Of a stretch of 33,664 bases of DNA, positions 17,991 through 33,475 are shown in pieces (position 1 is the first letter of the stretch; each line of letters begins with the position of its first letter). The notes beneath the pieces were generated by a model. It saw only the letters and a list, made by a program, of their open reading frames with translations, was not told the origin of the DNA and did no database searches. The stretch covers positions 1 through 33,664 of the forward strand of contig JAFYXG010000017.1 in NCBI GenBank assembly GCA_017546265.1, written 5' to 3'. Source of the stretch: Alphaproteobacteria bacterium. GTDB lineage: Bacteria > Pseudomonadota > Alphaproteobacteria > Rs-D84. Position numbers and translations under genes: made by a program.

Positions 17991-18009
17991 AACGCAGGGG
18001 CAAGTATTC

Positions 18010-18324
18010 TTATTTTATTTTGTAATTGTCGCAGTATTTAACAATTTCGTGTGCCAGTTCAATTGCCTGCTGTATTGCTGTTTTGGGACCTTCATCAAAT
18101 CGGCAAGGTTCGATTCTGCTGGCATCGATTATTTGGGCATTTGGTCCCTTGTATTGTTTGATTGGTTGACCATCGATGGTTGGGCAAAACCAGTCCGAAA
18201 GAAAGTGCGGTTCATTACGATAGAAATAATAAATACCAAATTTGCAATGCTTGTCACAGCCATCGCAAATTGTTCCGTTTGGCCCCGTATGCAGGTTTGT
18301 TTCTTTTTCCTGTGTAAATGACAT
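18010..18324 (-). CDS. Small Cys-motif protein (paralogue of the gene at 18505-18831)
   Basis: A 104-residue soluble protein. The N-terminus has MSFTQEKETN followed by CDGCDKHCKFGIY, a C-x2-C-x3-C motif likely to bind a metal, and the C-terminus ends EIVKYCDNYKIK. The same pattern (MSFxQ, TN, CxGCxKxC, GIY, PTI, EIxKxCDNYK) appears in the gene at 18505-18831, so the two arose by duplication. I choose the ATG at 18324 because alignment with the paralogue starts there. It is the last gene of a four-gene minus-strand run. Function unknown. Confidence 0.72.
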   Translation of the reverse strand: MSFTQEKETNLHTGPNGTICDGCDKHCKFGIYYFYRNEPHFLSDWFCPTIDGQPIKQYKGPNAQIIDASRIEPCRFDEGPKTAIQQAIELAHEIVKYCDNYKIK

Positions 18325-18337
18325 TTTTGTTTGCCTT

Positions 18338-18496
18338 TTATCTGTGTTTGCACAATTCATCTGGCTGGGGCAGGAAATACTCTTTCTTGAAATCATCGGC
18401 CGTATATGGACGGGGTATTCTTTTCGCCTTGGTTATAAACTCGTAGGCCACAGAGTCCAAAAATTTTCCTTTTTTCTGCTTGTCCATTTTGGTCAT
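18338..18496 (-). CDS. Small protein, 52 residues, between the two Cys-motif paralogues
   Basis: A short frame starting at ATG 18496 with AAGGA 6 nt upstream, 8 nt after the preceding stop and 13 nt before the next start. The product (MTKMDKQKKGKFLDSVAYEF and so on) is basic at its N-terminus and contains RPYTADDFKKEYFLP and a single Cys near its end. The tight spacing, the ribosome binding site and protein-like composition make it a probable gene. No family recognised. Confidence 0.6.
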   Translation of the reverse strand: MTKMDKQKKGKFLDSVAYEFITKAKRIPRPYTADDFKKEYFLPQPDELCKHR

Positions 18497-19160: not shown

Positions 19161-19535
19161 TTATTTCGCAATAACAGGAACAACAATATTTGCGTCATAA
19201 GTGCACATATTGCCTGCCATACCGTCAACAGCCAAACCTATCAAGCCACCAAATACGATATTGCCAAAAACCCATGGGTTCACACCAGATGACACAATCG
19301 CGTTGGACTGTTGAACCTTTTTATCTTCCATAACATGAACCGTCACCGCAGAACATGATTTTGGCACACTTATCAATGTTGGCAGTGTCAATTCTTGCAC
19401 TCCTGCCTTGGAGATAACCTGTGCATTTACCTTGGCCCCGTTACTGGTCATCAAATTTATTGTATCAGGCCCTCCATCAACAATCGTGGCACAAGCCCCC
19501 AGACCCACTGCGGATAAAACAATTAGTTTTTTCAT
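19161..19535 (-). CDS. Small lipoprotein
   Basis: A 124-residue lipoprotein: MKKLIVLSAVGLGAC with a lipobox (LGAC, lipidated Cys15), followed by ATIVDGGPDTINLMTSNGAKV. The start of the mature part (CAxIVxG, then a strand rich in Thr/Asn/Gly) and the hydrophobic glycine-rich segment near the end (VFGNIVFGGLIGLAVDGMAG, about 88-107) match a common class of small Gram-negative lipoproteins of unknown function, some of which are phage-linked. The ATG at 19535 is preceded by GGGGGAGA. It is transcribed alone as far as I can see. Confidence 0.8.
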   Translation of the reverse strand: MKKLIVLSAVGLGACATIVDGGPDTINLMTSNGAKVNAQVISKAGVQELTLPTLISVPKSCSAVTVHVMEDKKVQQSNAIVSSGVNPWVFGNIVFGGLIGLAVDGMAGNMCTYDANIVVPVIAK

Positions 19536-19557
19536 TTCTCCCCCAATCAAGCAAAAA

Positions 19558-19800
19558 ATTAAACCGCCATGGGATGTTAGGCGGTCGGGGAGTTGGTAAT
19601 CAGTATATCATTGATTCTGTCGCCTTTGGGTTGCCCCTGTTGTATAACGATCAGCCCCCCGACCTGTTTGGTCAGGGATAAATAACGACACAAAACCACA
19701 GGAATGACATCAGATAACGATGCCATACGCAATTTTGCACCGGATATACTGGGCCTACCACAGCCCCGAACCCATATCCCTATGGATTCAATTCACAGTT
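19558..19800 (-). other. Unassigned segment: open frame without a good start, ending in a terminator-like hairpin
   Basis: On the minus strand a frame is open from 19792 to a TAA at 19577-19579 (71 codons, including GKLR-like and VIPVVLCRYLSLTKQ text) but offers only an internal ATG and no ribosome binding site. Its stop lies inside a hairpin, ACCGCC (minus strand, 19585-19580) against GGCGGT (19568-19563), followed by TTTAATTTTTT. The segment also has several small inverted repeats. It could be a truncated gene with its original terminator or a structured RNA. From 19800 to 20050 I see nothing convincing. Confidence 0.35.
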
Positions 19801-20050
19801 TATCATTAAAAATCAAAAATGTAAATTGAATATATCGTTGGATAAATTGTTGTGGGACATGGGGCTTGTTTTTGCCCCGCCCCATCAGGCACACCACCCC
19901 AGGTTGCAACACACCATATTCTCAACACCCGATTCAACCACAGATTGTTATTCGCACCACCAAGCACGTAATTAAAGGCGTATTTTTCTTTATCCTGCAC
20001 ATGGTCTGGGATAAAATTAGCAATAAAAATACAAAAAATAAAAAAAACAC

Positions 20051-20091: not shown

Positions 20092-20167
20092 TCGGGCATA
20101 GTTCAGTCGGTAGAACAACGGACTGTTAATCCGTATGTCGTTGGTTCGAGTCCAACTGCCCGAGCCA
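20092..20167 (+). tRNA. tRNA-Asn (anticodon GTT), CCA encoded
   Basis: The acceptor stem TCGGGCA pairs with TGCCCGA, followed by G and an encoded CCA. The D arm carries GTTC...GAAC, the anticodon stem is ACGGA/TCCGT with loop CTGTTAA (anticodon GTT), and the T arm is GTTGG-TTCGAGT-CCAAC. The length of 76 nt is normal. Sequence style changes just after this gene, which suggests that its 3' end was the integration site of an element. Confidence 0.96.
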
Positions 20168-20400: not shown

Positions 20401-20976
20401 TTATTCCCAATAATTATATGCATTTGTCTGTTTCTTAGACTCTTCCTCAAGCATGCTCTCTATTTCCTTCTTGATTTTCTTAGCTTGTGGAAGAACATCT
20501 GCGTCTTTTTCCACTTTGATTATCGTGGCCAAAGAACTAGAAATAGCCTTCAGTACCAATTCTCTGTCTATTTCTTTATCTTGGAAAGATTCAGTAGAGC
20601 AATACAGTTTAGCAGCAGCTCTGATCTTCTGTGAAAGTTTGGGATATTCCTCATCATATTCTGACATTATCACATTCAATTCTCTTTCCAGATCCAACTC
20701 TCTTATCTCTGTCTGATATCTTTGGTCATTTTTTATTTTAGTATAATTTTGCTGGGTCTTTTGCTCGTTTCCATCGGAAAATGCTTTTTTAATTTCTGGC
20801 CACCACCAAAAGAGTAGCCCCAATATTCCTGGCACAAAACCACATATAACCAGGTACTGGAAGCCATCATGTTGGCAGAAAGAACGTTCAAATATTTCTT
20901 TACAAGTGGAATAATCTGATAACACCATTATCGCTATAATTTCATAGATTGCCAAAAATGTTACAAGTTTCTTCAT
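20401..20976 (-). CDS. Membrane protein with two N-terminal helices and a cytoplasmic coiled coil
   Basis: A 191-residue protein with hydrophobic segments at about 4-20 and 41-60, then a long charged, helical C-terminal part (about 65-191; for example ELDLERELNVIMSEY, KAISSSLATIIKVEKD and EIESMLEEESKKQ). It is the last of three membrane-protein genes on the minus strand, 14 nt after the previous stop. I do not recognise a family. Codon use (many GCT, TCT, AGA) differs from the genes left of the tRNA and resembles the Hsp70 operon opposite. Confidence 0.75.
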   Translation of the reverse strand: MKKLVTFLAIYEIIAIMVLSDYSTCKEIFERSFCQHDGFQYLVICGFVPGILGLLFWWWPEIKKAFSDGNEQKTQQNYTKIKNDQRYQTEIRELDLERELNVIMSEYDEEYPKLSQKIRAAAKLYCSTESFQDKEIDRELVLKAISSSLATIIKVEKDADVLPQAKKIKKEIESMLEEESKKQTNAYNYWE

Positions 20977-20990
20977 TTTATTTTCCTTTT

Positions 20991-22001
20991 TTATTTATTG
21001 TCTGTCTTGTCGACCAATTTTTCGGCACATGTTAAAGTAGCTTTAGTGCCGATTTCTTCTCTGATTCTGGACATTTCGTCTTCATCATCTAAATTTGCAT
21101 CTGGATATCCTTTAATTCTGTCGTTTTCAAAGTCTATCACATTATACATCTCTTCTGCATAACAACCGCAAAATTCTTCGGCAGTCTTTATTATCTCAGT
21201 TCTTGCAACTACGTCAGCCTCAATTTCAGGTGACATATCTTCTACAAAGCCCCGATAGCATTCAGTATATATATTGTTCTTAAATTCCGCTTTTTGCTCT
21301 AATGAATAAGGGTAGAAAAGCAGCGCAATAAACATTCCAAGAATAAAGCCGCCAATTGATATCAAAAATGGACGAACAACCCCAATCTTATGCTTTTTAT
21401 ATTCTCTAGCCTTTCTTCTCTCAAACTCCACCTTGATTGATAGGTATAATAATATTACCCATACAATGGTCCAACCGTAATAAACTATAATAAATGGCAT
21501 TGAATACTCGCCGCTACCAAACGATGTAGAGGTTAATATAAAATCAAATGCTTTGAATGCTGCCAAAAACAATAGTGGCCATATTAAACCACGTTTGATG
21601 GAGTACCACAGCGCAAATGAAGCACCGGCAAGCATCAGCATATAACATGCTCTGTAATCAGCACCTATTGTTCTGAAAATAGAATCTAAGAATGCTAACA
21701 CAAATAATATCAACGCCCAATACCTAGGTGATTGATACCATTTTTTTGAGTAGTAGTTCCTTGTGTCATCTTCTATCTCTGTATTTATGTTTTTTTTCAG
21801 AAATCTGCAGTAGCTTAGTAAACCTCCTTTCTTTTCAACAAAAACATACCTGAAGAAACTGACAGCCAGGAATGCTAATATTCCGGCCATCGCACATAAC
21901 ATAGCAACATTGATTATTCCAAGTTTGAACCTATTTCCAAGAACAATCCCACATGCTACGCAAAAGGTTGTAATATAGTCCGTTTGCTTGTTTTTATTCA
22001 T
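20991..22001 (-). CDS. Multi-spanning membrane protein of unknown function
   Basis: A 336-residue protein with about six membrane helices (roughly 28-52, 93-112, 118-135, 138-158, 168-190 and 212-230) and a soluble acidic C-terminal domain (about 235-336) with cysteines in YTECYRG, EEFCGCYAEEM and LTCAEKL. Part of this tail may face the periplasm with disulfides. It lies 12 nt downstream of the gene at 22014-22607 and 14 nt upstream of the next, so the three genes are one operon. No family recognised. Foreign-looking codon use. Confidence 0.78.
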   Translation of the reverse strand: MNKNKQTDYITTFCVACGIVLGNRFKLGIINVAMLCAMAGILAFLAVSFFRYVFVEKKGGLLSYCRFLKKNINTEIEDDTRNYYSKKWYQSPRYWALILFVLAFLDSIFRTIGADYRACYMLMLAGASFALWYSIKRGLIWPLLFLAAFKAFDFILTSTSFGSGEYSMPFIIVYYGWTIVWVILLYLSIKVEFERRKAREYKKHKIGVVRPFLISIGGFILGMFIALLFYPYSLEQKAEFKNNIYTECYRGFVEDMSPEIEADVVARTEIIKTAEEFCGCYAEEMYNVIDFENDRIKGYPDANLDDEDEMSRIREEIGTKATLTCAEKLVDKTDNK

Positions 22002-22013
22002 TGCAGACTCCTA

Positions 22014-22607
22014 TTATTCATTCATTTTCTTATCAAGGAACAAGATTGTTTTTATACTTACTGGTAAAATCAACAGCCAGAATAGAACCCACCACATTGA
22101 TACCGCATCATCGTCATCGTATATAAAATGTTTGTAGTGCATTAAATCTATGAAATTCTGACATTGATCTTTTGTAACAGGAGCCCAATATTTTACACCT
22201 AACCCTTTAACTGTTTCCCTGGCCATTATCAGCTGATAATTAGCTAATTTTTTGTATTCTTTTTTCTTGCATGCAGAATAAATATCTATCGCCGTATTAT
22301 GATTGTTTAGAATTTCTTTATAGGCAACTATGTCTAATACAAAGTCTTCTTTCCAATCCCCTGGCGCATATTTTGCAAATTCTTTTCCATATTTAGTTAC
22401 ATGTATGTATTTACTTCCTGGGGTTCCGGCGACAACAAGAGGAACTCTTTCAAAATCCCCACCATCTATCATAGAAACCATCTCTGCTTTGATTCGTGGG
22501 TTGTCAGAATAGTCATTCACATATCGTGCATATCCAAAGCAAGCAATAGCCATCATCACGCCAAGATACCACTGTATTTTTTTTATTTTTAGCAATACTT
22601 TCTTCAT
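22014..22607 (-). CDS. Bitopic membrane protein with a large soluble middle
   Basis: A 197-residue protein with a membrane helix at about 12-27 and another near the C-terminus (about 169-190, WWVLFWLLILPVSIKTILF). The roughly 140-residue region between them is soluble and mixed; with two helices it lies on one side of the membrane, by charge probably the periplasm (MKKVLLKIKKIQ is cytoplasmic). GGGAGTG precedes the ATG at 22607. First gene of the divergent operon. No family recognised. Confidence 0.75.
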   Translation of the reverse strand: MKKVLLKIKKIQWYLGVMMAIACFGYARYVNDYSDNPRIKAEMVSMIDGGDFERVPLVVAGTPGSKYIHVTKYGKEFAKYAPGDWKEDFVLDIVAYKEILNNHNTAIDIYSACKKKEYKKLANYQLIMARETVKGLGVKYWAPVTKDQCQNFIDLMHYKHFIYDDDDAVSMWWVLFWLLILPVSIKTILFLDKKMNE

Positions 22608-22726: not shown

Positions 22727-23155
22727 ATGAGCTTACAATTTGACGCAAATTTGAACTGCAATGTTTGTGGCAACAGTTTTGATGCAAAACTATACAAAAC
22801 AATCTGGGGAGAAATTCCTGAAAACCGTAGACTCGTTATGTCTGATCAGATAAACGTTGTTACCTGTCCTCATTGTGGCAACAGTTCTCATGTTGCATCC
22901 TCCCTGTTTTACACAAATTCGAAGCAGGAATTTGCCGTCTGGTATGAACCCTTTCATGATCCAATGATTGATTCTGATACCGAAGGATATAAAAAGTTTG
23001 GTGGTCCCAATTGCTACTTTGCAACAGCCCCTAGAATTAAAGACTGGGAAGACTTTAAGGATACAATTCGAAAGTTTGAAGACGGTGAGTTCAAAGGAGG
23101 CAGACCCAACTTGTCTTCTGTCCTAAAAGGGATACTGTCAAATTTCAAAAAATAA
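22727..23155 (+). CDS. CpXC-domain zinc-ribbon protein, soluble
   Basis: A 142-residue protein with two Cys pairs, C11-x2-C14 (CNVCG) and C47-P-H-C50-G, matching the CpXC domain (named for its C-P-x-C motif), a likely zinc ribbon. After it comes a segment ending FAVWYEPF (about 69-77) and a helical tail. The protein at 29570-30208 has its four cysteines at exactly the same positions and a matching VVWYRPC segment, but adds a C-terminal membrane helix. This gene has its own promoter and terminator, so it is transcribed separately from the Hsp70 operon directly downstream. The biochemical role of CpXC proteins is not known to me. Confidence 0.78.
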   Translation: MSLQFDANLNCNVCGNSFDAKLYKTIWGEIPENRRLVMSDQINVVTCPHCGNSSHVASSLFYTNSKQEFAVWYEPFHDPMIDSDTEGYKKFGGPNCYFATAPRIKDWEDFKDTIRKFEDGEFKGGRPNLSSVLKGILSNFKK

Positions 23156-23166
23156 TTTTCATTATT

Positions 23167-23191
23167 GCCCCGGCTCGGGGCTTTTTTTTTT
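23167..23191 (+). terminator. Terminator between the CpXC gene and the Hsp70 operon
   Basis: GCCCCG pairs with CGGGGC over GCT and is followed by ten T residues: a strong intrinsic terminator. Confidence 0.92.
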
Positions 23192-23210
23192 CAAAAGTAT
23201 ATTGTTTTTG

Positions 23211-23240
23211 TTGGAAAAATTTCATATTACATGCTAGAAT
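23211..23240 (+). promoter_or_regulatory. Promoter of the Hsp70 operon
   Basis: TTGGAA (23211-23216) and TAGAAT (23235-23240) are spaced by 18 bp, with TGC directly before the -10, the same TGC-TAGA pattern as the divergent operon's promoter. GAGG follows before the ATG at 23284. No CIRCE-like inverted repeat is seen. Confidence 0.55.
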
Positions 23241-23283
23241 ATCAAAATATTAAATCAAAATCCTTATTTCATAGAGGTTATTC

Positions 23284-23619
23284 ATGAATGAAAACACATT
23301 AGATTTTATCCTTGAACTTCAAAGATTGCCAAAAACAATCAACAAAATGCTTATGGTTATGCCCCCTGAAGAACAAAAACGCCACAAGGCACAGTTAACG
23401 TGGTTCTTTAAGAAGGCTGATGAGTTTATTGCTAGCAACGGTTTTTCTTTTGTTGCATGTGAGGGGGTGTATGATGTCGGTTTGCCATATACACCCCTAA
23501 ATTTGTCTGATTTTGACAAAGATGCGGTATTAGTGATTGACCAGGTTATTGAACCAACAATCATGCACAATGGGAAGGTTGTTAAAACAGGAACAGTTTT
23601 ATTAAAAAAGGCGGAATAA
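23284..23619 (+). CDS. GrpE-like short protein, candidate nucleotide-exchange factor
   Basis: A 111-residue protein directly upstream of the Hsp70 gene; the stop abuts the Hsp70 ATG. I see a helical N-terminal half (about 5-50) and a beta-rich C-terminal half. The C-terminal half resembles the GrpE head: a glycine after the helix (NGFSFVACEG, Gly53), then a strand segment, and IEPTIMHNGKVVKTGTVLLKK (89-109), which parallels the GrpE ending of the form kGYklnGrviRpAmVvVak. The long dimerising coiled coil of true GrpE (normally 170-200 residues) is absent. The role is inferred from this weak resemblance and the position grpE-dnaK-(AAA)-dnaJ. It could instead be a novel Hsp70 partner. Confidence 0.55.
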   Translation: MNENTLDFILELQRLPKTINKMLMVMPPEEQKRHKAQLTWFFKKADEFIASNGFSFVACEGVYDVGLPYTPLNLSDFDKDAVLVIDQVIEPTIMHNGKVVKTGTVLLKKAE

Positions 23620-26112
23620 ATGACTTATTTTATTGGTATTGACTTAGGGACAACAAATAGTGCTATTTCATCATACGATGGTGAGAATGTTAAAGTTTGG
23701 AAGAGTTCTGATGGGTTTGATGTTACACCATCTGCTATTTTCGTGGATAAGCGTGGCAATAAGTATGTAGGGTCGAGAGCTTACCAAATGACAGCATCTG
23801 ATCCTGACAATGTTGCAGTAAGATTTAAGCGCATGATGGGTACCAGCACTATGGTTTCTATTCCTAACTTAGGCAAAGAACTAACTCCAGAGGAATGTTC
23901 TGCGGAAGTCCTGAAAACATTGTTCAATTATCTGCCTGATGAGATTCGCAAGGATCCGGACCTGGCAACTGTTATTACTGTTCCAGCAGCATTTGACCAA
24001 AAAGCAAAAGATGCTACATTGGCTGCTGCAAATATGGCTGGCCTTGGCAAGGTGGCTTTGATGCAGGAACCTGTTGCTGCGGTTATGAGCATAATGAAAA
24101 CACGTCCAGAAGATGGTGTATTCCTTGTTTACGATTTGGGTGGTGGTACCTTGGATGTTGCTGTAGCAGAAACAACTAACGGCCGTGTTAGTTTGCAAAG
24201 CCATGGGGGTATTTCCGTATGCGGCGGCCGTGACTTTGACCGTGCTTTAATTGAAAAAGTTGTCTATCCATGGATGCAACAAAGATTTAAACTGCCTGCT
24301 GAATTCTGGTCATTAGATAAATACAAGACCATCGCTGGTGTGATCAATCACGCAACTGAGGAAGCTAAGAAAGTTTTGTCAGATAGAGAAGCAGCAACTA
24401 TCTCTGTACCAGAATCCCAACTACGTGTTCAGGATGAAGCTGGTGAAGATTTGTATATTGACGTAGAAATAACACGTGAAACATACAATCCATTGATAGA
24501 GGAACAAATCCAGGACACAATAAAATCGGTTCGTGACACTCTGGAAGCAGCAGGCTTGAGAACACAAGATGTTGCAAGAATTGTTTTTGTTGGTGGCCCA
24601 ACAAATTATAAACCATTACGAGATAAGGTGTCAGCAGAGTTAGGCATTGCTGCTAATACCGAAGTCAATCCTATGACCGCAGTTTCAGAGGGCGCAAGTA
24701 TATTTGCTGAATCTATTGACTGGTCTACTGATGGACACGCAAAAAAGAACACTCGAGGTTCAATTGAGTCCAATGGCCCTATCAATGTAAAGTTTGACTT
24801 TATTGCACGTACTCCTGACTCCCGTACGAAACTGGTTGTAACCATGCCGGAAGCAAAAAATGGCAGCTATGAATTCCAAATAGATTCGCTGGATACAGGT
24901 TGGTCATCCGGTAAAATCTCAATGAACGAAAAAACTCCTGTGGATTTATTGCTTTCTAAAAATGGAGAAAACACATTCAAGGCATTTGTATTTGATTCAA
25001 CAGGTGAGCTTGTCCCTCTGGAAGAAAATAAAATCGTTATCACAAAGACTGCTGCAACCATTGATTCTATTCCGGCATCACATACAGTTTTTCTGGGTGT
25101 TTTAGATAGACTTGGTGGTACTGCTGTTCCAGAATATTTGGTTAAAGCTGGCGATATGCTACCTAAGCGCACAACCGTTAAGCTGAAGGCCGCTGAAACA
25201 TTGAAAGCCGGCGACATGGCATCCCTGAACTTCAACTTATGGGAAGGAGATATTGTAAATCCAATTGAGGACAATCGTCCTATTGGTAGCATGAAGATAT
25301 CTGGAAAGGATTTTGATGAAGGTGTCATCCCTGCCGGTGCTGAAATAGAATGTATGTTTGAAATGTCTGATGACGGCAATATCAGCATGCAGGTTTCTAT
25401 TCCTAGCATTCGTGGCTCTTTTGATTCAAACAGAAACTTCTACTCTAGACAGGACGGTCAAAAAGACTACACAGAGGCTGCAGGAGAAATTCTAGTTGAT
25501 GCAGAAGAAACTAAACACCGTGCTGACACCCTTGCAGAAAGCATAGATGATCCAGATTTGGATTCCGCTATTAACAAGCTAAACAACGCATCATCCCTGT
25601 CCTCTACAGAAAGGGACCCTGAAAAGGCTCGTGCGGCAGAAGAGCAAATCTTGCAAGCAAAAAAAGACCTGGCTAAGGTACGTAAAAAGCATTTACAAAC
25701 AATCCGTCAGAAGGATTTAGATTCTATTGTCGACTTGTTTGATCCTTTGCGTAAGACAATGACACCAGTTGAAACCAGTGCTGTGGACAACCTGATTGCC
25801 AGCGCAAAAAGAAAAATTGCGGATACAAGTGGTGAATTTGAAACATATCTGTCTGAACTGCGCAGCAAATTATTCACTGTATTGTGGCGACAGGATTGGT
25901 ATATTGTTGGTAAGTTTAAGGCTATTGCTGCACGTCCTGGAGCTGTTTCTGACAAGGCCAAGTTTAAGACCCTGGTTGCGGCAGGTCAAAATGCAATGGA
26001 ACACGATAACATTGAAAGACTTAGAGAGGTTGTTATTGAACTGATGTCCATAAGCTATGCAAGCAGTGTGGACTATGAAGATATGAATATCACAAATATT
26101 GTAAGAGGTTAA
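23620..26112 (+). CDS. Hsp70/DnaK-family chaperone with an inserted beta domain and extended C-terminus
   Basis: An 830-residue ATP-driven chaperone. The nucleotide-binding domain (1-366) is intact: phosphate-1 motif IDLGTTNS (7-14), Lys70 in RFKRMMG, Glu150 in QEPVAAV, phosphate-2 YDLGGGTLD (171-179) and adenosine motif VGGPT (324-328). DnaK normally passes at once into the substrate domain; here about 100 extra residues with beta-domain composition (about 386-478) intervene. A recognisable SBD-beta follows (about 485-610, including RTTVKLKAAETLKAGD, LWEGD and IGSMKISG), then a helical lid-like region and an extra helical extension to 830. It is therefore about 190 residues longer than DnaK and is not the housekeeping copy. 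Codon use is unlike the genes left of the tRNA. Confidence 0.9.
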   Translation: MTYFIGIDLGTTNSAISSYDGENVKVWKSSDGFDVTPSAIFVDKRGNKYVGSRAYQMTASDPDNVAVRFKRMMGTSTMVSIPNLGKELTPEECSAEVLKTLFNYLPDEIRKDPDLATVITVPAAFDQKAKDATLAAANMAGLGKVALMQEPVAAVMSIMKTRPEDGVFLVYDLGGGTLDVAVAETTNGRVSLQSHGGISVCGGRDFDRALIEKVVYPWMQQRFKLPAEFWSLDKYKTIAGVINHATEEAKKVLSDREAATISVPESQLRVQDEAGEDLYIDVEITRETYNPLIEEQIQDTIKSVRDTLEAAGLRTQDVARIVFVGGPTNYKPLRDKVSAELGIAANTEVNPMTAVSEGASIFAESIDWSTDGHAKKNTRGSIESNGPINVKFDFIARTPDSRTKLVVTMPEAKNGSYEFQIDSLDTGWSSGKISMNEKTPVDLLLSKNGENTFKAFVFDSTGELVPLEENKIVITKTAATIDSIPASHTVFLGVLDRLGGTAVPEYLVKAGDMLPKRTTVKLKAAETLKAGDMASLNFNLWEGDIVNPIEDNRPIGSMKISGKDFDEGVIPAGAEIECMFEMSDDGNISMQVSIPSIRGSFDSNRNFYSRQDGQKDYTEAAGEILVDAEETKHRADTLAESIDDPDLDSAINKLNNASSLSSTERDPEKARAAEEQILQAKKDLAKVRKKHLQTIRQKDLDSIVDLFDPLRKTMTPVETSAVDNLIASAKRKIADTSGEFETYLSELRSKLFTVLWRQDWYIVGKFKAIAARPGAVSDKAKFKTLVAAGQNAMEHDNIERLREVVIELMSISYASSVDYEDMNITNIVRG

Positions 26113-26116
26113 AGAA

Positions 26117-27532
26117 ATGATGGATCCCTGGTTGCCAAAAGATTATAAATTTCCTAATGATGTGGAGATTCGAAATCTGATATTTGCTAATGATTCCTGG
26201 CAAATATATAAAACGGCAGATAATAAGAATTTGCTGGTCAGTCGTCAGCCTTTAGTTGACAAGTGGGTTGATCAGGGACTGTTAGAACCAAACGTTTTTT
26301 TCAAGTGTGACTTTGCTGGTGATAAATTCAGTTGTTTGCTATCTTCAGACCGTTTCTTTATGGCACCACTGAATTATAAACTCTTTGAGGTAAACAAGGT
26401 TTCTGCTCTCGCTTTTGCAAAAAGTTTAAAGGAAACTCGCAGAATTCTGAAAAATGTCCCACTAGATGATGCTATATATGTTGAACAATATGCTCGATTG
26501 TTACCTGTATCTGAACTAGCTGGCAGTTTTGTTGATGACAGTTTGCTACTTGGTACCTGGCTAACCGGTGGAGTTGCTGTTCCAACAACATCTATTCGCA
26601 GACTGAAAAGTTTGACAGTCAATTTCTCCAAGCAAGACCTTGAAGAAATTATTGATGAGGCCGGGATAGATCAAAAAATATTGGATGGTCAGGTTGATTC
26701 TGAAGCTGCATTCTTGGATGACAACTCGCCGAGAAAATCATCACCTGCTAAGCCTGGTAAATTCGAGCTGCCAGGTGCTACATACCTGGAACAATTCTTT
26801 CACGAGAATGTTATAGATATTGTTCAAAACCCTGAAAGATACGAATCCATGGGTATCGGGTTCCCATCGCCGATCATTTTATATGGCAAACCAGGTACCG
26901 GTAAAACATATACTGTTGAAAAATTGGCTGAGTTTCTGGATTGGCCTGTATACAGCATAAACTCTAGTAGTGTCGGTAGCCCATATATCCATCAGACTGG
27001 ACAGAAGATCGCAGAGGTATTCAACAAAGCATTTGAGACTGCACCATCAATAGTTATCATTGATGAAATGGAAGCATACCTTTCTAAACGTGAAGGCGCA
27101 CAAGATTTTAAGGTGGAGGAAGTTGGAGAGTTCTTGCGATTGATCCCTGAGGCACCAAAGAACAAGGTTCTAGTTGTCGGTATGACAAACTTATTGGACA
27201 GGATCGATCCGGCTATTTTAAGAACAGGTCGTTTTGATCATAAAATTGAAGTCAAAATGCCAACTGCTGAAGATATTCGTTCCATGCTATATACTGCTTT
27301 AGCCAAGTTGCCTAAGGAAGATAATTTGAACCTGGAGAAAGTAGTCGAGGCACTGACCGACAAACCACGTTCTGATGTGGCCTTTGTTACTAAGGAAGCT
27401 GCTCGATTGACTGCTTTCCGTGGCAAGGATAAGATATCACAACAGGAAATTGATGATGCTTTGCAAGCCAAAGCATTGGCATCAACAACAGAAAAACCCA
27501 AAAGACGTATAGGATTTAACAATGACAATTAA
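26117..27532 (+). CDS. AAA+ ATPase of the FtsH/Cdc48-like single-module type
   Basis: A 471-residue protein with one AAA+ module (about 218-450): Walker A GKPGTGKT (257-264), a possible pore-loop segment around GSPYIHQTG (287-295), Walker B IVIIDE (312-317), sensor-1 Asn358 in VVGMTN, and arginine fingers in LRTGRFD (Arg369 and Arg372). The 200-residue N-terminal domain is not one I recognise; it reads as a mixed alpha/beta adaptor-like domain (for example WQIYKTADNKNLLVSRQ). No protease or membrane segment is present. Located 4 nt after the Hsp70 stop and overlapping the next gene by 11 nt, it should be made together with both. A disaggregase or unfoldase role beside Hsp70, like ClpB with DnaK, is inferred. 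Confidence 0.88.
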   Translation: MMDPWLPKDYKFPNDVEIRNLIFANDSWQIYKTADNKNLLVSRQPLVDKWVDQGLLEPNVFFKCDFAGDKFSCLLSSDRFFMAPLNYKLFEVNKVSALAFAKSLKETRRILKNVPLDDAIYVEQYARLLPVSELAGSFVDDSLLLGTWLTGGVAVPTTSIRRLKSLTVNFSKQDLEEIIDEAGIDQKILDGQVDSEAAFLDDNSPRKSSPAKPGKFELPGATYLEQFFHENVIDIVQNPERYESMGIGFPSPIILYGKPGTGKTYTVEKLAEFLDWPVYSINSSSVGSPYIHQTGQKIAEVFNKAFETAPSIVIIDEMEAYLSKREGAQDFKVEEVGEFLRLIPEAPKNKVLVVGMTNLLDRIDPAILRTGRFDHKIEVKMPTAEDIRSMLYTALAKLPKEDNLNLEKVVEALTDKPRSDVAFVTKEAARLTAFRGKDKISQQEIDDALQAKALASTTEKPKRRIGFNNDN

Positions 27533-29270
27533 AGAAAATCCCTTTTATATTCTAGAAGCCTCCGTACATGACAACAAACAGAAAATCATGTCTTTGGCAG
27601 AAGAAAAGAGCCTTGAAATCGATGAGTCTGTTTGTGCTGAGGCACGTATTGCTTTAACAAATCCTAGAAGACGTCTTTCAGCTGAAATGTCTTGGTTCCC
27701 TGGTGTTGGCGAAAAAGCAACTAAGGCAATGCTCGGCAGAATAAAGTTCGGCTTGATGGAAAAGGAAGACATGAAGAATCTTCCACCATTGGTGGCTTTC
27801 AACCTGTCTGTTAATAGTTTGTCCTCCACTAAGTTATCTGACTCCAAGCTTGAACAGGAGCTTTTTGATATTGCGGTCCTGTATAGCAAAATCAACCCAA
27901 ATACTCTGTTGAATGCTATCAATGAAGATAGAGCTGTATCTGGCTTTCCAGAAATCACGGATACGTCTTCAATCCTAGAAGAACTAGAGATTATTCGCAC
28001 CCAGTCTATGCAAACAATCGAGGGCATTTTAAATAAACGCCCATTACAGGCACAAAACAAGATTATGCTTAGTATCTTAAATAAGGAACAAAAACATTCT
28101 GGTGCATTGGATCTGGTTCAAGACTACATTGAAAAGATTTATGCGATGTCTGTTCAAAAAGAAATGGGAGAGTTAAAATCTGGCCTAATGGACCATATTG
28201 AAAAGATCAAAACTACAGCGAAACGCAAAAATGTTACTGTTTCACAGGTTGGAACACTGGTAGATAAATTCCTGATCGACTTGACCGAATTCGACACAAT
28301 TATGCAGCCTATGCAAGTTAGCACTCAAAACCGTGGCTTGGAACATTCAGATAGTCGTGAGATAGCAAGAGAAACTAGATCCTTGGCTATTTATTTGAGT
28401 AACACCTTAGATGATTTAAGCCTTTCGGAAAAAATTGTCCGTGTAGGTAAAAAGCTATTTGCTGAAGTTGGTTCTGCTGACCAAGCATTTCAGGAGGACA
28501 TAGATACATTATTCCGCATTAAAGAAAATCAAAAAGAACATGATGCGAGTATCACATGCACGGTTCATAATTCATACTCTTGGGACAATCGTGCCTTATC
28601 TATTTCCCCTAAAGGGGTTACCTATGGTAATACTAAAATAAAGTTGGAAGATATTACCTGGATTCGTTATGGGACGACCATTAAGTTAAACACCTGGACA
28701 ACTGATGTAGACACGTATGTGGGTTTGGGTGATGACGAGAACGTCCTTAGAATTACCTGGTTAACAGAGAAGGACTTCAAAACATTCACAACATGTCTAT
28801 GGAAAGCAGTTGGCCCACGTATTATCATGAACATGGTTGATCAGTTGGCTCTGGGCAATTCGCTTTATGGCATTATTTATGACAATAAGGTAAAGCTGGC
28901 GAAACAAGACGATTGGGGTCCTACGGAAATAAAGTTCTTTAAGCTTTCAGATATTAGAGTTGGGGTTGCAGCTGGCCATATGATTATAAGCGCAAAAAGC
29001 GATCCAAAGTTCAAAGTTGACCTGTCTTTCCAGGATGCTGACAACGTTCAAGCATTGTATCTGCTGCTTGACGTATTTCTTTCTCGTGGTGGCAACAGTA
29101 TCAGTAAGGCTTTTGATGTGACTCCACAGGATGCTAAGAAACGCAAACAAGTTGATTTCAGCACTCCGATCGAATTAGAAAGCTATATGTTTATATGGAA
29201 TTGGATTAAGGCAATATTCTGGTCAGTATTCATTGGTGGCATACTTCTACTTGCTATGTTCGCAGATTAA
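27522..29270 (+). CDS. J-like co-chaperone with tandem PH/GRAM-like segments and a C-terminal membrane anchor
   Basis: A 582-residue protein. The N-terminus (6-56) has the shape of a J domain: NPFYILEAS, a helix with AEEKSLEID, and a closing ARIALTNPRRRLSAEM, matching the end of J domains where residues read like LTNPxxR. The diagnostic HPD is absent; the equivalent position reads LEID. A long helical middle follows (about 60-340), then two beta-rich segments each resembling PH/GRAM folds (about 345-430, and about 445-540), and a C-terminal membrane helix (about 556-578). Its start overlaps the AAA+ gene by 11 nt. I infer that it recruits Hsp70 to a membrane or to a lipid-associated target; the missing HPD leaves stimulation of Hsp70 ATPase open. 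Confidence 0.72.
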   Translation: MTIKENPFYILEASVHDNKQKIMSLAEEKSLEIDESVCAEARIALTNPRRRLSAEMSWFPGVGEKATKAMLGRIKFGLMEKEDMKNLPPLVAFNLSVNSLSSTKLSDSKLEQELFDIAVLYSKINPNTLLNAINEDRAVSGFPEITDTSSILEELEIIRTQSMQTIEGILNKRPLQAQNKIMLSILNKEQKHSGALDLVQDYIEKIYAMSVQKEMGELKSGLMDHIEKIKTTAKRKNVTVSQVGTLVDKFLIDLTEFDTIMQPMQVSTQNRGLEHSDSREIARETRSLAIYLSNTLDDLSLSEKIVRVGKKLFAEVGSADQAFQEDIDTLFRIKENQKEHDASITCTVHNSYSWDNRALSISPKGVTYGNTKIKLEDITWIRYGTTIKLNTWTTDVDTYVGLGDDENVLRITWLTEKDFKTFTTCLWKAVGPRIIMNMVDQLALGNSLYGIIYDNKVKLAKQDDWGPTEIKFFKLSDIRVGVAAGHMIISAKSDPKFKVDLSFQDADNVQALYLLLDVFLSRGGNSISKAFDVTPQDAKKRKQVDFSTPIELESYMFIWNWIKAIFWSVFIGGILLLAMFAD

Positions 29271-29283
29271 AAAAGGATGAAGA

Positions 29284-29568
29284 ATGAATAAAAATACTTG
29301 GTATACTATTTGTATTATTATGCTAGGATTGGCAGTTCTGCCGATTATGCCCTATGGGTATTACATGCTTTTACGTGTTGTTATATGTGGAGTTTGCTTA
29401 TGGCAAATAATTTCTGAATACAACAAAAAGGCTACATTGCCTGTTGGTTTATGTTTAATAGCATTGTTATACAACCCAATATTCAGCATCAGTTTAACAC
29501 GACCAGTGTGGACCATTTTTAATGTAGCAACTCTGGTATATTTTCTTTCTGTTATGAAAAAGGATTAA
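29284..29568 (+). CDS. Small multi-spanning membrane protein
   Basis: A 94-residue, very hydrophobic protein with three or four helices (about 5-24, 26-43, 51-68 and 72-89). The segments YGYYMLLRVVICG and LLYNPIFSISLTRPVW resemble a widespread class of small uncharacterised membrane proteins with a YYxLLRxVxCG and NPixxixLxR pattern; I recall this from memory and cannot name a function. AAGGATGAAG stands before the ATG at 29284. It is embedded in the operon, between the J-like protein and the membrane CpXC protein. Confidence 0.72.
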   Translation: MNKNTWYTICIIMLGLAVLPIMPYGYYMLLRVVICGVCLWQIISEYNKKATLPVGLCLIALLYNPIFSISLTRPVWTIFNVATLVYFLSVMKKD

Positions 29569-29569
29569 A

Positions 29570-30208
29570 ATGTCTTGTCAAGTTCATGTATTTGTTGTTT
29601 GTGAAAACTGTGGCCATAAGCATGAGGCCATTCTAGACAGTCGAATAAACGGGTCTGTCATGGAGGACACACAAAAGATTGGAACAGATACATTGAACAT
29701 GGTTACCTGTCCGAATTGTGGGTTTGAATCCCGTGCAAAGTTTCCTGTTCTATACGAGAACTTTTATACAAAAACAGTCGTTTGGTATCGCCCCTGCAAA
29801 GGCACAGATGATTTCTTTGAAATGGTCGAGGACTTCTACATTAACAACAGAGCTGAAGCATATAAAAAGAATCTCCTGCATATCAAAACGTGGAAGAAAT
29901 TTAAGGAAATATTTTCTAAAGACATTTTGAAGAATTCTATGGATATGGCATTTGACACCTCTTCAGGTGAAGAAATGGGAAAAGAGCTATCAAAACGACG
30001 GATGGCAAGTTTACTACTAGAACTTGGAACTGCAAAGCTGTTGAAAGAACATACAAATCTTCTGCTAGACGTACCAGAATTTACCCTGCAGGAATCATCT
30101 TGTATTTATACAGGTCATTCGGAAACGCCTGAGTCAGCACAAGTACTTAAATTTGTAGCGGTAATTGTTTTAATTCTATTTGCAATCGTTATCCTTGCTG
30201 CATTATAA
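29570..30208 (+). CDS. CpXC-domain zinc-ribbon protein with C-terminal membrane helix
   Basis: A 212-residue protein with C11-x2-C14 (CENCG) and C47-P-N-C50-G, the same four positions as in the protein at 22727-23155. The match continues through VTCPxCG, a strand pair, and VVWYRPC. The middle (about 80-185) is helical and charged, and the last 25 residues form a membrane helix (VAVIVLILFAIVILAAL). It follows the small membrane protein by 1 nt, so it is the last gene of the Hsp70 operon. With the J-like protein and the small protein, three of the operon's products are membrane-associated. The function of the CpXC module is unknown; metal-dependent protein binding is a guess. Confidence 0.8.
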   Translation: MSCQVHVFVVCENCGHKHEAILDSRINGSVMEDTQKIGTDTLNMVTCPNCGFESRAKFPVLYENFYTKTVVWYRPCKGTDDFFEMVEDFYINNRAEAYKKNLLHIKTWKKFKEIFSKDILKNSMDMAFDTSSGEEMGKELSKRRMASLLLELGTAKLLKEHTNLLLDVPEFTLQESSCIYTGHSETPESAQVLKFVAVIVLILFAIVILAAL

Positions 30209-30229
30209 TTACCTGCAACAAGTAAATTA

Positions 30230-30258
30230 TTGATTTTTTCATTAAATTGTGATATAAT
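30230..30258 (+). promoter_or_regulatory. Promoter immediately upstream of two tandem terminators
   Basis: TTGATT (30230-30235) and TATAAT (30253-30258) are spaced by 17 bp. Transcription from here would begin near 30265 and reach the first terminator after about 30 nt. A small stem, CTTG-TTAT-CAAG (30260-30271), lies at the predicted start. Confidence 0.65.
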
Positions 30259-30273
30259 ACTTGTTATCAAGCG

Positions 30274-30297
30274 GACGGTTTTAAGCCGTCTTTTTTT
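30274..30297 (+). terminator. First of two tandem intrinsic terminators
   Basis: GACGGTT pairs with AGCCGTC (one G-T pair) and is followed by seven T residues. It can end the Hsp70 operon as well as any transcript from the promoter at 30230-30258. Confidence 0.85.
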
Positions 30298-30301
30298 ATT
30301 C

Positions 30302-30329
30302 AGCCCTGGCACTGTGCTGGGGCTTTTTT
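30302..30329 (+). terminator. Second of two tandem intrinsic terminators
   Basis: AGCCCTGGC pairs with GCTGGGGCT (two G-T pairs) over ACTGT and is followed by six T residues. It stands 17 nt before the methyltransferase start codon. Confidence 0.85.
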
Positions 30330-30345
30330 CTTTGTAGGAGATGTG

Positions 30346-31152
30346 ATGCAAAAACAATGTGCAAAATTGCTGCGTGCCAAACTGGCCAGGAACGATGAGT
30401 TCTATACCCAATATGCTGATGTTGAATCTGAGTGCGACCATTATCGGTCGCATTTTTTGAATAAGTGCATTTACTGTAATTGTGATACAGCTGACAGTGC
30501 CTTTGTTAAATACTTTACCAAACTAAAGTCCCAGGGGCTGATCAGGGATGTGTGGTTTAGCGGCGGTCTGGGTGGCACCGACTTTCGTAGTCCCCAGGCC
30601 ATTGAGTTGCTACAACGGGCGGACGTGGTTGTTACCAATCCGCCTTTTTCTTTGTTTCGGGATTTTATGGATTTACTGATTGAATATCAAAAGCCGTTCC
30701 TGGTCATTGGCAACAAAAATGCTATTGCCCAGCGCAAAGTGTTTGATTTGGTGAAAAGGAATAAAATCTGGCCTGGCGTTCGGAGATGGGCCGGTGGTAT
30801 GCGGTTCATTGTTCCTGATGATGCTGATACCAAAGAAGTGCCGGCAATATGGCTTACCAATTTGCCGCATTCCCACAGACCATTGCCAATCCCATTGTCG
30901 GTATCTTACAATCCGAAACTGTTTCCTAATTACGACAATGCTGATGCAATAAATGTAAATCGCACAGCGGATATTCCGTTTGATTATGATGGGATTATGG
31001 GTGTGCCAATCAGCTTTATTGAACGTTATAATCCGGCACAATTCGAGATTCTGGGATTGGATAAGGACTTCACTTCCGATACTGCTGCATGTTCTGTGCT
31101 TGGTCAACGGATTTATACCAGAGTGTTCATCAGAAAAAGACTTGCCAATTAA
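30346..31152 (+). CDS. EcoRI-type adenine-specific DNA methyltransferase, shortened form
   Basis: A 268-residue N6-adenine methyltransferase of the M.EcoRI family: RNDEFYTQYADVE near the start, YCNCD (about 41-45), the catalytic NPPF motif (98-101) followed by SLFRDFMDLLIEY, then VIGNKNAIAQ, the WFTNL-like IWLTNLP, YDNADAINV, IPFDYDGIMGVPISF and QFEILG. All match family landmarks. Compared with full-length members as I remember them (about 300-370 residues), 40 or more residues are missing between the CNCD region and the NPPF motif. AGGAG precedes ATG 30346 (a GTG stands one codon earlier). No restriction endonuclease gene is adjacent, so it may be a solitary, phage-type protective methylase. 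Confidence 0.82.
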   Translation: MQKQCAKLLRAKLARNDEFYTQYADVESECDHYRSHFLNKCIYCNCDTADSAFVKYFTKLKSQGLIRDVWFSGGLGGTDFRSPQAIELLQRADVVVTNPPFSLFRDFMDLLIEYQKPFLVIGNKNAIAQRKVFDLVKRNKIWPGVRRWAGGMRFIVPDDADTKEVPAIWLTNLPHSHRPLPIPLSVSYNPKLFPNYDNADAINVNRTADIPFDYDGIMGVPISFIERYNPAQFEILGLDKDFTSDTAACSVLGQRIYTRVFIRKRLAN

Positions 31153-31176
31153 ACATGATTGTTTCATACTGTCAAC

Positions 31177-32202
31177 ATGTTTAAGCGTATCAGGATTTTA
31201 TTCTTGTCCGTTATCGCAGTCTTGAGTCTGTCGTGTTCCTGTTATGCGTTTGAAATTTCCGACCTGTCTAACTACAGTGCAATTGCCGTTAAGACTATGA
31301 AAAAAACGGACACTATTCGTCCCGATAAAAAGCATACATTGGAAATTACTGGCACCAAAGGTTTGGAATCTGTTCTGGGAAAAGAGAAAAAGTCGTTTGA
31401 AACGCTGTATGTTTACATTGGCAAAAAGACCATCAAGGAATACAGTTCCGCCAAATGGTATTACTATTATCAAAAATCTTGGAATGGCCGTGGTCGTGGC
31501 AAATTGCATTACAAGCGCAATGACGTAATGAAGTCCGCCGCTGTAGGTGATATGTTGGTTGTTGCACGCAAACCCAATGATGAATTGTTGATGCTGGTTA
31601 TTAAGGACGGTAATGATGCCAAGGATGCTGTGCTGGCTCATGTCGGCATGCAACCTGACAAGCCTGCGGAAGAGCCATCATTCTGGTCAAAGCTATGGGG
31701 GGCGGCTGAAACAAAGACCGAAGAATATGATGTTGAACCAGCTGCTTTGCCAATTCCACCTGTTTCTGAAAAGTCTTGGGTGCGTATCTATTTTACCCCT
31801 GGAACTGACTGCGAAGATAGCATTGTAAATGAGATAGAAAAAGCCAAGAAAATGAATATTGCGGTTTATTCTATTACCAATCGCAAAATAGTTGATGCCA
31901 TCCTTGCTGCGCACAAACGTGGTGCAAAGGTTCGTGTTATAACTGACAGAACAATGGCTGGAAATAAATATTCGTTAGATGAGGAAATGGCTGCTGCTGG
32001 CATTCCAGTTGTAATTCATAAAAAGCATAAAATTATGCACAACAAGTACGCCATATTTGATGGCAAAACTGTTGTCACGGGTTCATATAATTGGACAGCA
32101 TCTGCCACAAAAAGCAATGCTGAAAACTGTACATTCTTTGAACAGCCCAACAAAGAATATTCTATTAACTTTAACGAACTGTGGGACTCGTATACAAAAT
32201 AA
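31177..32202 (+). CDS. Secreted phospholipase D-family nuclease-like protein
   Basis: A 341-residue exported protein. The signal peptide is about residues 1-25 (MFKRIRILFLSVIAVLSLS, then CSCYA). The C-terminal half (about 200-341) is a single PLD domain with the HKD motif: His288, Lys290 and Asp295 in HNKYAIFDG, preceded by KIMHN and followed by GSYNWT. One HKD per chain is typical of Nuc-type nucleases that act as dimers. The N-terminal domain (about 40-150; for example KLHYKRNDVMKSAAVGDMLVVARK) is unassigned; it has a faint likeness to effector domains of some restriction enzymes, which I would not rely on. The ATG at 31177 is preferred because of the signal peptide; no clear ribosome binding site is seen. 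Confidence 0.82.
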   Translation: MFKRIRILFLSVIAVLSLSCSCYAFEISDLSNYSAIAVKTMKKTDTIRPDKKHTLEITGTKGLESVLGKEKKSFETLYVYIGKKTIKEYSSAKWYYYYQKSWNGRGRGKLHYKRNDVMKSAAVGDMLVVARKPNDELLMLVIKDGNDAKDAVLAHVGMQPDKPAEEPSFWSKLWGAAETKTEEYDVEPAALPIPPVSEKSWVRIYFTPGTDCEDSIVNEIEKAKKMNIAVYSITNRKIVDAILAAHKRGAKVRVITDRTMAGNKYSLDEEMAAAGIPVVIHKKHKIMHNKYAIFDGKTVVTGSYNWTASATKSNAENCTFFEQPNKEYSINFNELWDSYTK

Positions 32203-32221
32203 AACTAAAAGGATTTATATC

Positions 32222-33475
32222 ATGGAAGGTGTTGTTGTTATAATTTTATTACTATTTGTTGCCTTTTTAATTGTAATTTCTAATGCTGGTGAAAAAACAA
32301 AAGCAGAGCCTACTTTAGAAAACTCACTACGTGGCAATCCTATGGCCAGACTAAGTGATGCGCTAAGCCCCATGTTTGCACCTAATCCCTTTGACAAAGT
32401 TGATTGGGGAAATGTTTCTTTGGCAGAAATCAAAAGAATTGTAGAATCTGGTGCTGATGTCAATATAAGGGGCAAAATGCTTAAAACATATCCAAATGGA
32501 GGAGTAGCCATTGGTTTGTCAAACTCCCCCTTAGATTTTGCCTCAACTGCTGAAATCGCAGAATATCTAATCGAGCAAGGTGCTGATGTTAATTCAGAAG
32601 ATAATGGCTCACATACTACTCCTCTACATTACTCTTCAAGTCCTGAAGTTGTTGATGTATTATTAAGGCATGGGGCTGACATAAATCACAAAAACAAGGA
32701 CGGAGAGACTCCATTGATCTCTGCCCTTACATCCAGTAGATTTGATGTGGCAGAACATTTGGTAGAACGGGGTGCAGATATAAATGTGATAGAAAAAAAG
32801 ACGGGAAAAACACCCTTGTGCTTTTTTGTTTCTGTTGAGTTTAATGAAAAGTTATTAAAAATGGGTGCTAATCCAAATGTTGTAGTTGAGGAAAAGCATG
32901 GAAAGTACACCCCACTACATTATGCAGCGATTTATGGTTACACTGATCATGCTCAACTACTAATAGACTATGGTGCAGACGTAAACAGCCTTGCCGCAGG
33001 TAAAGCACCTTTATGTAGTGCGCAGAGTCCCGAGATGGTTAACTTTTTACTAGATAATGGTGCGGATATAGAAATTAAGGATGACAAACAAGAAACGCCC
33101 CTCTTTTATGCTGTTTTTGGAGATGTAGATGTTGTTCAGGCTTTAGTTAAGAGAGGTGCTAACATACATGCCTTGGATAAGTCAGGTAATACGATTTTGC
33201 ATTATCAGTCAGATCCAAAGATTACAACTTATTTGCTTATGCATGGTCTTGATCCCAATGCACGGAATAACATAAATGAAACACCATTACACAACGCTGT
33301 AATTGACAGTAATCTTGATGAAGAAAATTTAAGAGATAGTGCATTGGAAACAATTAGGGTTCTATTAGAATACGGAGCCAATGTATCGATTAAAAACGAT
33401 TTTGGTGAAACACCTATTGATGTTGCAAATTCGGAAGATATAGAACTAATCGAGTTATTAAAAAGCCATCTGTAG
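32222..33475 (+). CDS. Membrane-anchored ankyrin-repeat protein
   Basis: A 417-residue protein with an N-terminal membrane helix (about 2-20, VVVIILLLFVAFLIVIS), a short linker, and then about nine or ten ankyrin repeats filling residues 60-417. The repeats show the usual TPLHYA, LLxxGAD and VN/IN pattern, for example in HTTPLHYSSSPEVVDVLLRHG and YTPLHYAAIYGYTDHAQLL. The AAAGGA site lies about 7 nt before ATG 32222. Ankyrin repeats mediate protein-protein contact; the orientation of the helix would place them in the cytoplasm or periplasm. It follows the PLD gene by 19 nt and is probably co-transcribed with it. An immunity or partner role is possible but not shown. Confidence 0.88.
   Translation: MEGVVVIILLLFVAFLIVISNAGEKTKAEPTLENSLRGNPMARLSDALSPMFAPNPFDKVDWGNVSLAEIKRIVESGADVNIRGKMLKTYPNGGVAIGLSNSPLDFASTAEIAEYLIEQGADVNSEDNGSHTTPLHYSSSPEVVDVLLRHGADINHKNKDGETPLISALTSSRFDVAEHLVERGADINVIEKKTGKTPLCFFVSVEFNEKLLKMGANPNVVVEEKHGKYTPLHYAAIYGYTDHAQLLIDYGADVNSLAAGKAPLCSAQSPEMVNFLLDNGADIEIKDDKQETPLFYAVFGDVDVVQALVKRGANIHALDKSGNTILHYQSDPKITTYLLMHGLDPNARNNINETPLHNAVIDSNLDEENLRDSALETIRVLLEYGANVSIKNDFGETPIDVANSEDIELIELLKSHL

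Follow-up and report, generated by a model that had tools for sequence, protein, structure and literature searches.

A mobile Hsp70-GrpE-AAA+ operon with a membrane-anchored, HPD-less J-like protein, found among defense genes and probably encoding an envelope-tethered remodeling machine

Why should a bacterium that already encodes a housekeeping chaperone set carry a second, divergent one on an island-like stretch of its chromosome? The question is raised by contig JAFYXG010000017.1 of an alphaproteobacterial genome, of which the 33,664-nucleotide (nt) stretch analyzed here (the window) encodes at positions 23284-30208 an operon for GrpE-like, Hsp70, AAA+ ATPase, and J-like proteins. The genome is a small draft (958 kb) whose nearest named relatives in an Hsp70 search were alphaproteobacterial bins from sheep gut, and its housekeeping DnaK, GrpE, and DnaJ are encoded elsewhere. 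The operon is one example of a chaperone module that is widespread but rare and that moves horizontally. Its best overall explanation, to which we assign a probability of roughly 0.58, is a membrane-tethered Hsp70/GrpE/AAA+ machine serving anti-phage or anti-mobile-element defense by protein disassembly. Six open reading frames (ORFs), all on the forward strand and spaced by -11 to +13 bases, compose the operon at the coordinates given by the initial annotation, which had been made from the sequence alone:

23284..23619, forward strand: GrpE-family small protein (111 residues; PF01025 in homologues; colinear with housekeeping GrpE; predicted nucleotide-exchange factor for the Hsp70)
23620..26112, forward strand: Hsp70 (830 residues; ATPase domain 1-366; insert 366-480; substrate-binding beta domain ~482-590; long C-terminal part)
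26117..27532, forward strand: AAA+ ATPase (471 residues; N-terminal domain 1-185; one classic AAA module ~230-455)
27522..29270, forward strand: J-like protein (582 residues; HPD-less J-like N-terminus 7-56; helical middle 64-344; PH-like domain 346-443; second beta domain 456-522; C-terminal membrane helix 554-581)
29284..29568, forward strand: DUF6804 small membrane protein (94 residues; PF20619, E = 9e-19), a subclade-specific companion
29570..30208, forward strand: CpXC protein with a C-terminal membrane helix (212 residues; PF14353, E = 3e-11), a local addition

Conservation of gene order was assessed by searching the C-terminal 500 residues of the Hsp70 against 84,980 species genomes, which yielded 226 stretches with relatives, of which the best 80 were kept. 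Six further loci came from IMG/VR, and the J-like and GrpE-like proteins, used as queries in searches of their own, supplied plasmid copies, giving 90 non-duplicate loci from about a dozen phyla, collected mainly via Hsp70 alone. Because the main search used only Hsp70, the counts of neighboring genes are an independent result. A GrpE-like gene lay directly upstream of the Hsp70 gene in 82 of 83 scorable loci, an AAA+ gene lay directly downstream in 76 of 83, and a J-like gene was found downstream in 56 of 57; all four genes occurred in order in 52 of the 56 fully visible loci. Identity between distant members was ~50% for Hsp70, 37 to 44% for the AAA+ ATPase, and 23 to 30% for the J-like protein. 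The six genes had initially been treated as one unit, a description that holds for the ordered core of four. The two remaining genes, although Pfam confirmed them as the predicted small membrane protein and membrane CpXC protein, are local additions: DUF6804 homologues followed the J gene only in the window's own subclade, and CpXC was rejected as a core part because it was not among the gene families recurring in at least three loci. Judged from these neighborhoods, the conserved unit is four genes plus a separate membrane anchor. Occurrence of the genes mostly alone or in core genome positions, or a match to a described system, had been named beforehand as grounds for abandoning the proposal; we found a fixed gene order, an accessory distribution, and no system match, and the proposal was not refuted.

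The window's GrpE-like protein alone fell below detection, with no Pfam match. Among its homologues, PF01025 (GrpE) was the top family (25 of 50 members; the next best family matched 2 of 50), and their profile aligned colinearly with housekeeping GrpE (global P = 1e-4). This kinship emerged only with the larger alignment; an HHalign comparison of six GrpE-like sequences with one GrpE failed. The Hsp70 matched PF00012 (E = 5e-57, residues 5-363), and its catalytic residues D8, K70, E150, D172, and T177 (window numbering) were invariant in 86 of 86 sequences. The position of DnaK R167 was occupied by Ala in 85 of the 86 operon Hsp70s, and that of N170 by Gln in all 86; in an ungapped alignment, the housekeeping DnaK of the same genome has Arg at the R167 position. 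Residues ~482-590 aligned with the DnaK substrate-binding beta domain (388-481; P = 9e-4), and the preceding insert of ~115 residues was unmatched. The AAA+ protein contained a single PF00004 module (E = 7e-30, residues 253-380), which in the structural model matched the modules of p97, the proteasomal ATPase, and FtsH; its Walker A Lys, Walker B Asp-Glu, and arginine fingers were invariant in 76 of 76 sequences. By this residue conservation, the ATPase sites of both motors, Hsp70 and AAA+, are intact. A kinase-like N-terminal domain in the AAA+ protein, considered from the strand and helix order of the model, was rejected: neither Pfam matches over 55 members nor PDB sequences supported it, and in profile alignments against bacterial kinases, control segments scored equally well or better. 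The initial annotation of a GrpE-like protein, a divergent Hsp70, and a single-module AAA+ ATPase was thereby upheld.

The window's J-like protein had no Pfam match, and its AlphaFold2 model (pLDDT, the predicted local distance difference test score, 92.5) begins with four short helices. DnaJ J-domains aligned with this N-terminal stretch from end to end (P = 0.004); six control segments from the J-like protein gave P values of 0.05 to 0.12. The HPD motif is gone: His and Pro are absent, and Asp34 was kept in 69 of 78 sequences. The predicted PH-like domain resembled Rtt106, Spt16/Pob3, and FERM domains (Z = 8.0 to 8.7 over 75 to 83 residues), and the C-terminal helix (554-581) was seen in both the model and a transmembrane scan. 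The earlier reading of a J-like protein ending in a membrane helix thus stands for the N-terminal alignment and the helix, and must be amended for the missing HPD motif. In the DnaK-DnaJ pair, the Asp of HPD binds to R167 of DnaK, and in all systems tested, stimulation is abolished when HPD is changed (PMC8215388). Both halves of this canonical J-Hsp70 contact have been lost together, the HPD motif from the J-like protein and R167 from the Hsp70, which suggests that the contact was rewired or that the J-like protein is inactive.

How the proteins are held at the membrane differs among loci. A transmembrane protein family, often with a peptidoglycan-binding end, supplied the fifth gene in 67 loci, its most frequent position being between the AAA+ and J genes. 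A separate anchor is lacking from the window and its closest relatives, whose J-like proteins carry the C-terminal helix instead; a few other loci have both. In Aminobacter, the J-like protein and the anchor domain form one fusion, and there is no AAA+ gene; in the plasmid variant at L013:9447-14885, the J-like protein with its fused membrane helix and peptidoglycan-binding part is followed by the GrpE-like and Hsp70 genes. The anchor can be a helix on the J-like protein (the window's subclade), a fused domain (Aminobacter), or a separate transmembrane protein that carries an N-terminal tag. The tag is a short motif, GF[SA]GLSxLxSD, with which many anchors start. It occurred in 46 proteins from 37 loci. 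Control DNA (400 kb) and all shuffled sets lacked it, and 194 kb of other DNA had it at a single place. It heads several membrane proteins whose C-terminal parts are not detectably related. These occurrences suggest a docking tag for the machine. Some loci have the motif in two proteins (e.g., L004, at 10153 and 14821, and L075, at 12932 and 16971).

With this anatomy, the operon very probably encodes an envelope-tethered Hsp70/AAA+ remodeling machine. The membrane helix and the intact ATPase sites agree with the initial annotation of a membrane-tethered remodeling machine made of non-housekeeping parts. In the mechanism that we propose, a private Hsp70 with its own GrpE-type factor and AAA+ unfoldase would be tied to the inner membrane by the dedicated J-like adaptor. 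Through its helical and PH-like parts, the J-like protein would recognize a client (a protein or a complex) on the cytoplasmic side of the membrane and pass it to the private Hsp70 through the rewired contact. ATP hydrolysis would trap the client, GrpE would reset the cycle, and the AAA+ ring, like ClpB or p97, would thread and unfold it. The likely targets would be foreign proteins present at the membrane during infection or DNA entry, and the outcome would be defense against phages or mobile elements. No nuclease or toxin is encoded in the core; therefore, if this is a defense system, it probably acts by taking proteins apart. The same content would also suit mobile protein quality control, in which the Hsp70/AAA+ machine rescues or clears damaged proteins at the membrane under stress, in a manner reminiscent of HscC-DjlB/DjlC or mobile heat-resistance islands, and defense islands merely collect it as an accessory gene set. 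Every core part is chaperone-like, and tail-anchored J proteins are known that serve a second Hsp70 at the membrane (HscC with DjlB/DjlC, which has a cadmium phenotype; PMC8215388). However, the neighboring genes speak against quality control, which we consider unlikely.

Those neighbors are rich in defense genes. Among 283 flanking proteins, PADLOC matches were obtained to type I restriction-modification (RM), Gabija, Hachiman, Shango, Hma, a BREX-type helicase, Druantia-like, DRT, and other systems. As a control, each of the 20 contigs that supplied the compared flanks also contributed one 20-kb region away from the operon, searched with the same E-value limit. In the flanks, 90 PADLOC models were matched in 112 proteins, and in the control regions, 4 were matched in 110; these counts are of models, which are redundant, rather than of proteins and overstate the number of genes, although the contrast is still large. 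The four control matches (mad3, RtcR-type, SspA, and DndA) are of kinds with housekeeping relatives. The enrichment in defense islands that had been proposed as a check was therefore observed, and it argues against the quality-control explanation, as does the absence of a recurrent link to recognizable heat-shock genes among the recurring neighbor families. One plasmid copy lies between Zorya and BREX genes. In two loci, Hachiman hamA-hamB lies downstream, codirectional with the operon and a few bases at most from its last membrane-protein gene, a tight arrangement that quality control would not lead one to expect. At these loci (L025:14648-21123 and L027:14637-20877), the operon, two tagged membrane proteins, and hamA-hamB form one apparent operon.

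The linkage to hamAB, together with the type I RM genes found upstream of the operon in one locus, would fit a helper that assembles, activates, or recycles neighboring restriction or Hachiman complexes instead of acting on foreign proteins. We regard such a helper as improbable, for the neighbors range over RM, Gabija, Hachiman, Zorya, BREX, Shango, and RADAR, and because they vary, no single client is conserved. On its genomic context, a role of the operon in anti-phage defense is probable.

The distribution of the operon is sporadic. Counting the window's own genome each time, it was present in 2 of 148 relatives and in 3 of 398 genomes of the phylum (2 of 397 others). In the Hsp70 tree, phyla were intermixed, to which draft-bin contamination can have added: near neighbors belonged to Acidobacteriota, Verrucomicrobiota, and Alphaproteobacteria, and the window grouped with a Clostridia bin and a Puniceicoccales bin. 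Annotated plasmid copies sit in Tn7-like elements, with carriage on conjugative and mobilizable plasmids. A phage-encoded operon was rejected, as no J-like match was found in 50,697 phage records. Six IMG/VR contigs, putatively viral, carry the Hsp70. Because J-like homologues are absent from the phage records, the operon is not a phage gene set; islands, plasmids, and Tn7-like elements carry it as cargo. Such carriage could also mean that the module serves the mobile element itself, aiding transfer or establishment or acting in anti-defense by unfolding host membrane or immune proteins. That would be quite improbable: most of the loci retrieved lie outside known plasmids and next to defense genes, and no conserved link to transfer genes was seen among the recurring neighbors.

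Several points weigh against defense by a tethered chaperone machine. Defense islands also collect non-defense cargo, and the core contains no effector enzyme, which is unusual for a defense system. The putative defensive role comes from genomic context. The core was not found in phage records, and the operon is very rare in Escherichia coli (2 of 5,426 genomes, one copy being truncated). The GrpE-like and J-like assignments combine profile scores that are weak on single sequences with family profiles, position, and the structural model; compared with the PDB, the J-like model listed mostly helical bundles and PH domains, and no solved J-domain was matched. It is tentative, and on balance doubtful, that the operon represents a new class of immunity by protein disassembly, in which a tethered, self-contained Hsp70-GrpE-AAA+ machine with a rewired J-Hsp70 contact and interchangeable envelope anchors, recruited via the GF[SA]GLSxLxSD tag, would unfold foreign proteins at the inner membrane.

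The setting within the window is that of an island whose left edge is marked by a tRNA gene:

20092..20167, forward strand: tRNA-Asn(GTT), identified with ARAGORN; probable insertion site at the left edge of a low-GC island

Guanine-plus-cytosine content falls from ~0.41-0.48 before this gene to 0.34-0.43 after it. The window contains no second copy of the tRNA-Asn 3' end that would mark the right edge of the island. An island beside tRNA-Asn with phage-type genes had been proposed; the tRNA and the drop in GC content support the island, and its mobility agrees with the Tn7-like and plasmid carriage, the sporadic occurrence, and the mixing of phyla, whereas no integrase or virion gene was recognized among the window ORFs scanned. 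The interval from the tRNA to the operon holds three divergent membrane-protein-like genes (20401-22607), none with a significant Pfam match. Two CpXC zinc-ribbon proteins bracket the operon, a soluble one upstream (22727-23155) and the one with a membrane helix downstream (29570-30208). At 30343-32202, a homologue of EcoRI-type adenine methylases is immediately followed by a secreted-looking PLD-family nuclease, possibly as a restriction-like pair; a methylase of the same family also lies downstream of the operon in a same-genus relative (loci L010 and L016). The ankyrin-repeat protein encoded at 32057-33475 has a membrane helix close to the N-terminus and resembles the PADLOC candidate PDC-M72A. 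Just left of the island, a 906-residue protein with an N-terminal trypsin-like domain is encoded at 14704-17424. Two stretches left of the tRNA (~18000-18350 and 19515-19835) have copies with ~70 to 86% DNA identity in many same-genus genomes, several per genome in some, and may be dispersed repeats or a repeated gene family.

Most known defense systems act by cutting nucleic acids, depleting metabolites, or breaking membranes. If our explanation is true, the principle here would be a different one, defense through protein unfolding by a private Hsp70/AAA+ machine. The operon is also a natural test of how an Hsp70 is driven without the HPD-R167 contact, which is held to be required in every system tested (PMC8215388). 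The five-gene copy in the chromosome of E. coli HeN100 (NZ_CP044443.1, 4115537-4122320) is apparently intact and shares its island with RADAR rdrB and a remnant of dptF; the annotations of the operon proteins go no further than Hsp70 family, ATP-binding, or hypothetical. Both defense and HPD-free drive are therefore testable in standard laboratory strains.

The initial annotation could match the cluster to no nameable defense system, and the collections that we searched agree. PADLOC-DB 2.0.0 (2023) has no model for the operon and gave no matches for the Hsp70 and J-like proteins and one insignificant match for the GrpE-like protein; NCBIfam 2026 has no model for it, and no description was found in the open-licence literature searched. 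The AAA module is similar to IetA/IteA (PADLOC, E = 7e-28; NCBIfam, E = 7e-26). IetAS, which pairs the IteA AAA+ ATPase with an S8 peptidase, was rejected at 91.2 bits against the NCBIfam cutoff of 510, and no S8 peptidase partner was found by Pfam among the ten ORFs scanned (22727-33475), the set to which the following two comparisons also refer. CnuD of the CoCoNuT systems likewise has Hsp70-like nucleotide-binding and substrate-binding domains and an anti-invader context near RM, BREX, and Druantia; however, it is part of McrBC systems and its ATPase motifs are degenerate (PMC11090510), whereas the ATPase residues here are invariant and the absence of any McrB or McrC match led us to reject CoCoNuT/McrBC membership. 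The predicted GAP1-N2 GTPase conflict systems combine Hsp70, GrpE, and DnaJ-FNIII (Kaur et al. 2020, PMC7159879) and so share with this operon an Hsp70, a GrpE, and a J-type protein. They are built around GTPases and occur in actinobacteria and firmicutes, whereas this operon has an AAA+ ATPase instead and occurs mainly in other taxa; with no GTPase found, membership was rejected.

Closer in anatomy is HscC, the second Hsp70 of E. coli, with its tail-anchored membrane J proteins DjlB and DjlC (PMC8215388), to which the tail-anchored J-type protein of the window corresponds. DjlC has a working J domain and no AAA+ partner is described for HscC (PMC8215388), in contrast to the HPD-less J and near-constant AAA+ gene here. 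HscC is thought not to use GrpE (PMC8215388), whereas the adjacency of a GrpE-family gene suggests that the operon Hsp70 would be GrpE dependent. The HscC-Djl system as described was accordingly rejected for the operon. With DnaK-DnaJ-GrpE plus ClpB, the operon shares an Hsp70, a J-type protein, a GrpE-type factor, and an AAA+ ATPase, and its Hsp70 keeps the nucleotide-binding domain, the substrate-binding beta domain, and the catalytic residues. Membership in this bi-chaperone was rejected on HPD, R167, and ClpB architecture: the J-like protein is HPD-less and membrane-anchored, the Hsp70 has a 115-residue insert and no R167, and in place of the two AAA modules and M-domain of ClpB there is one AAA module of the p97/proteasome/FtsH type. 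Unlike those of the canonical bi-chaperone, the genes here form one mobile operon beside defense genes.

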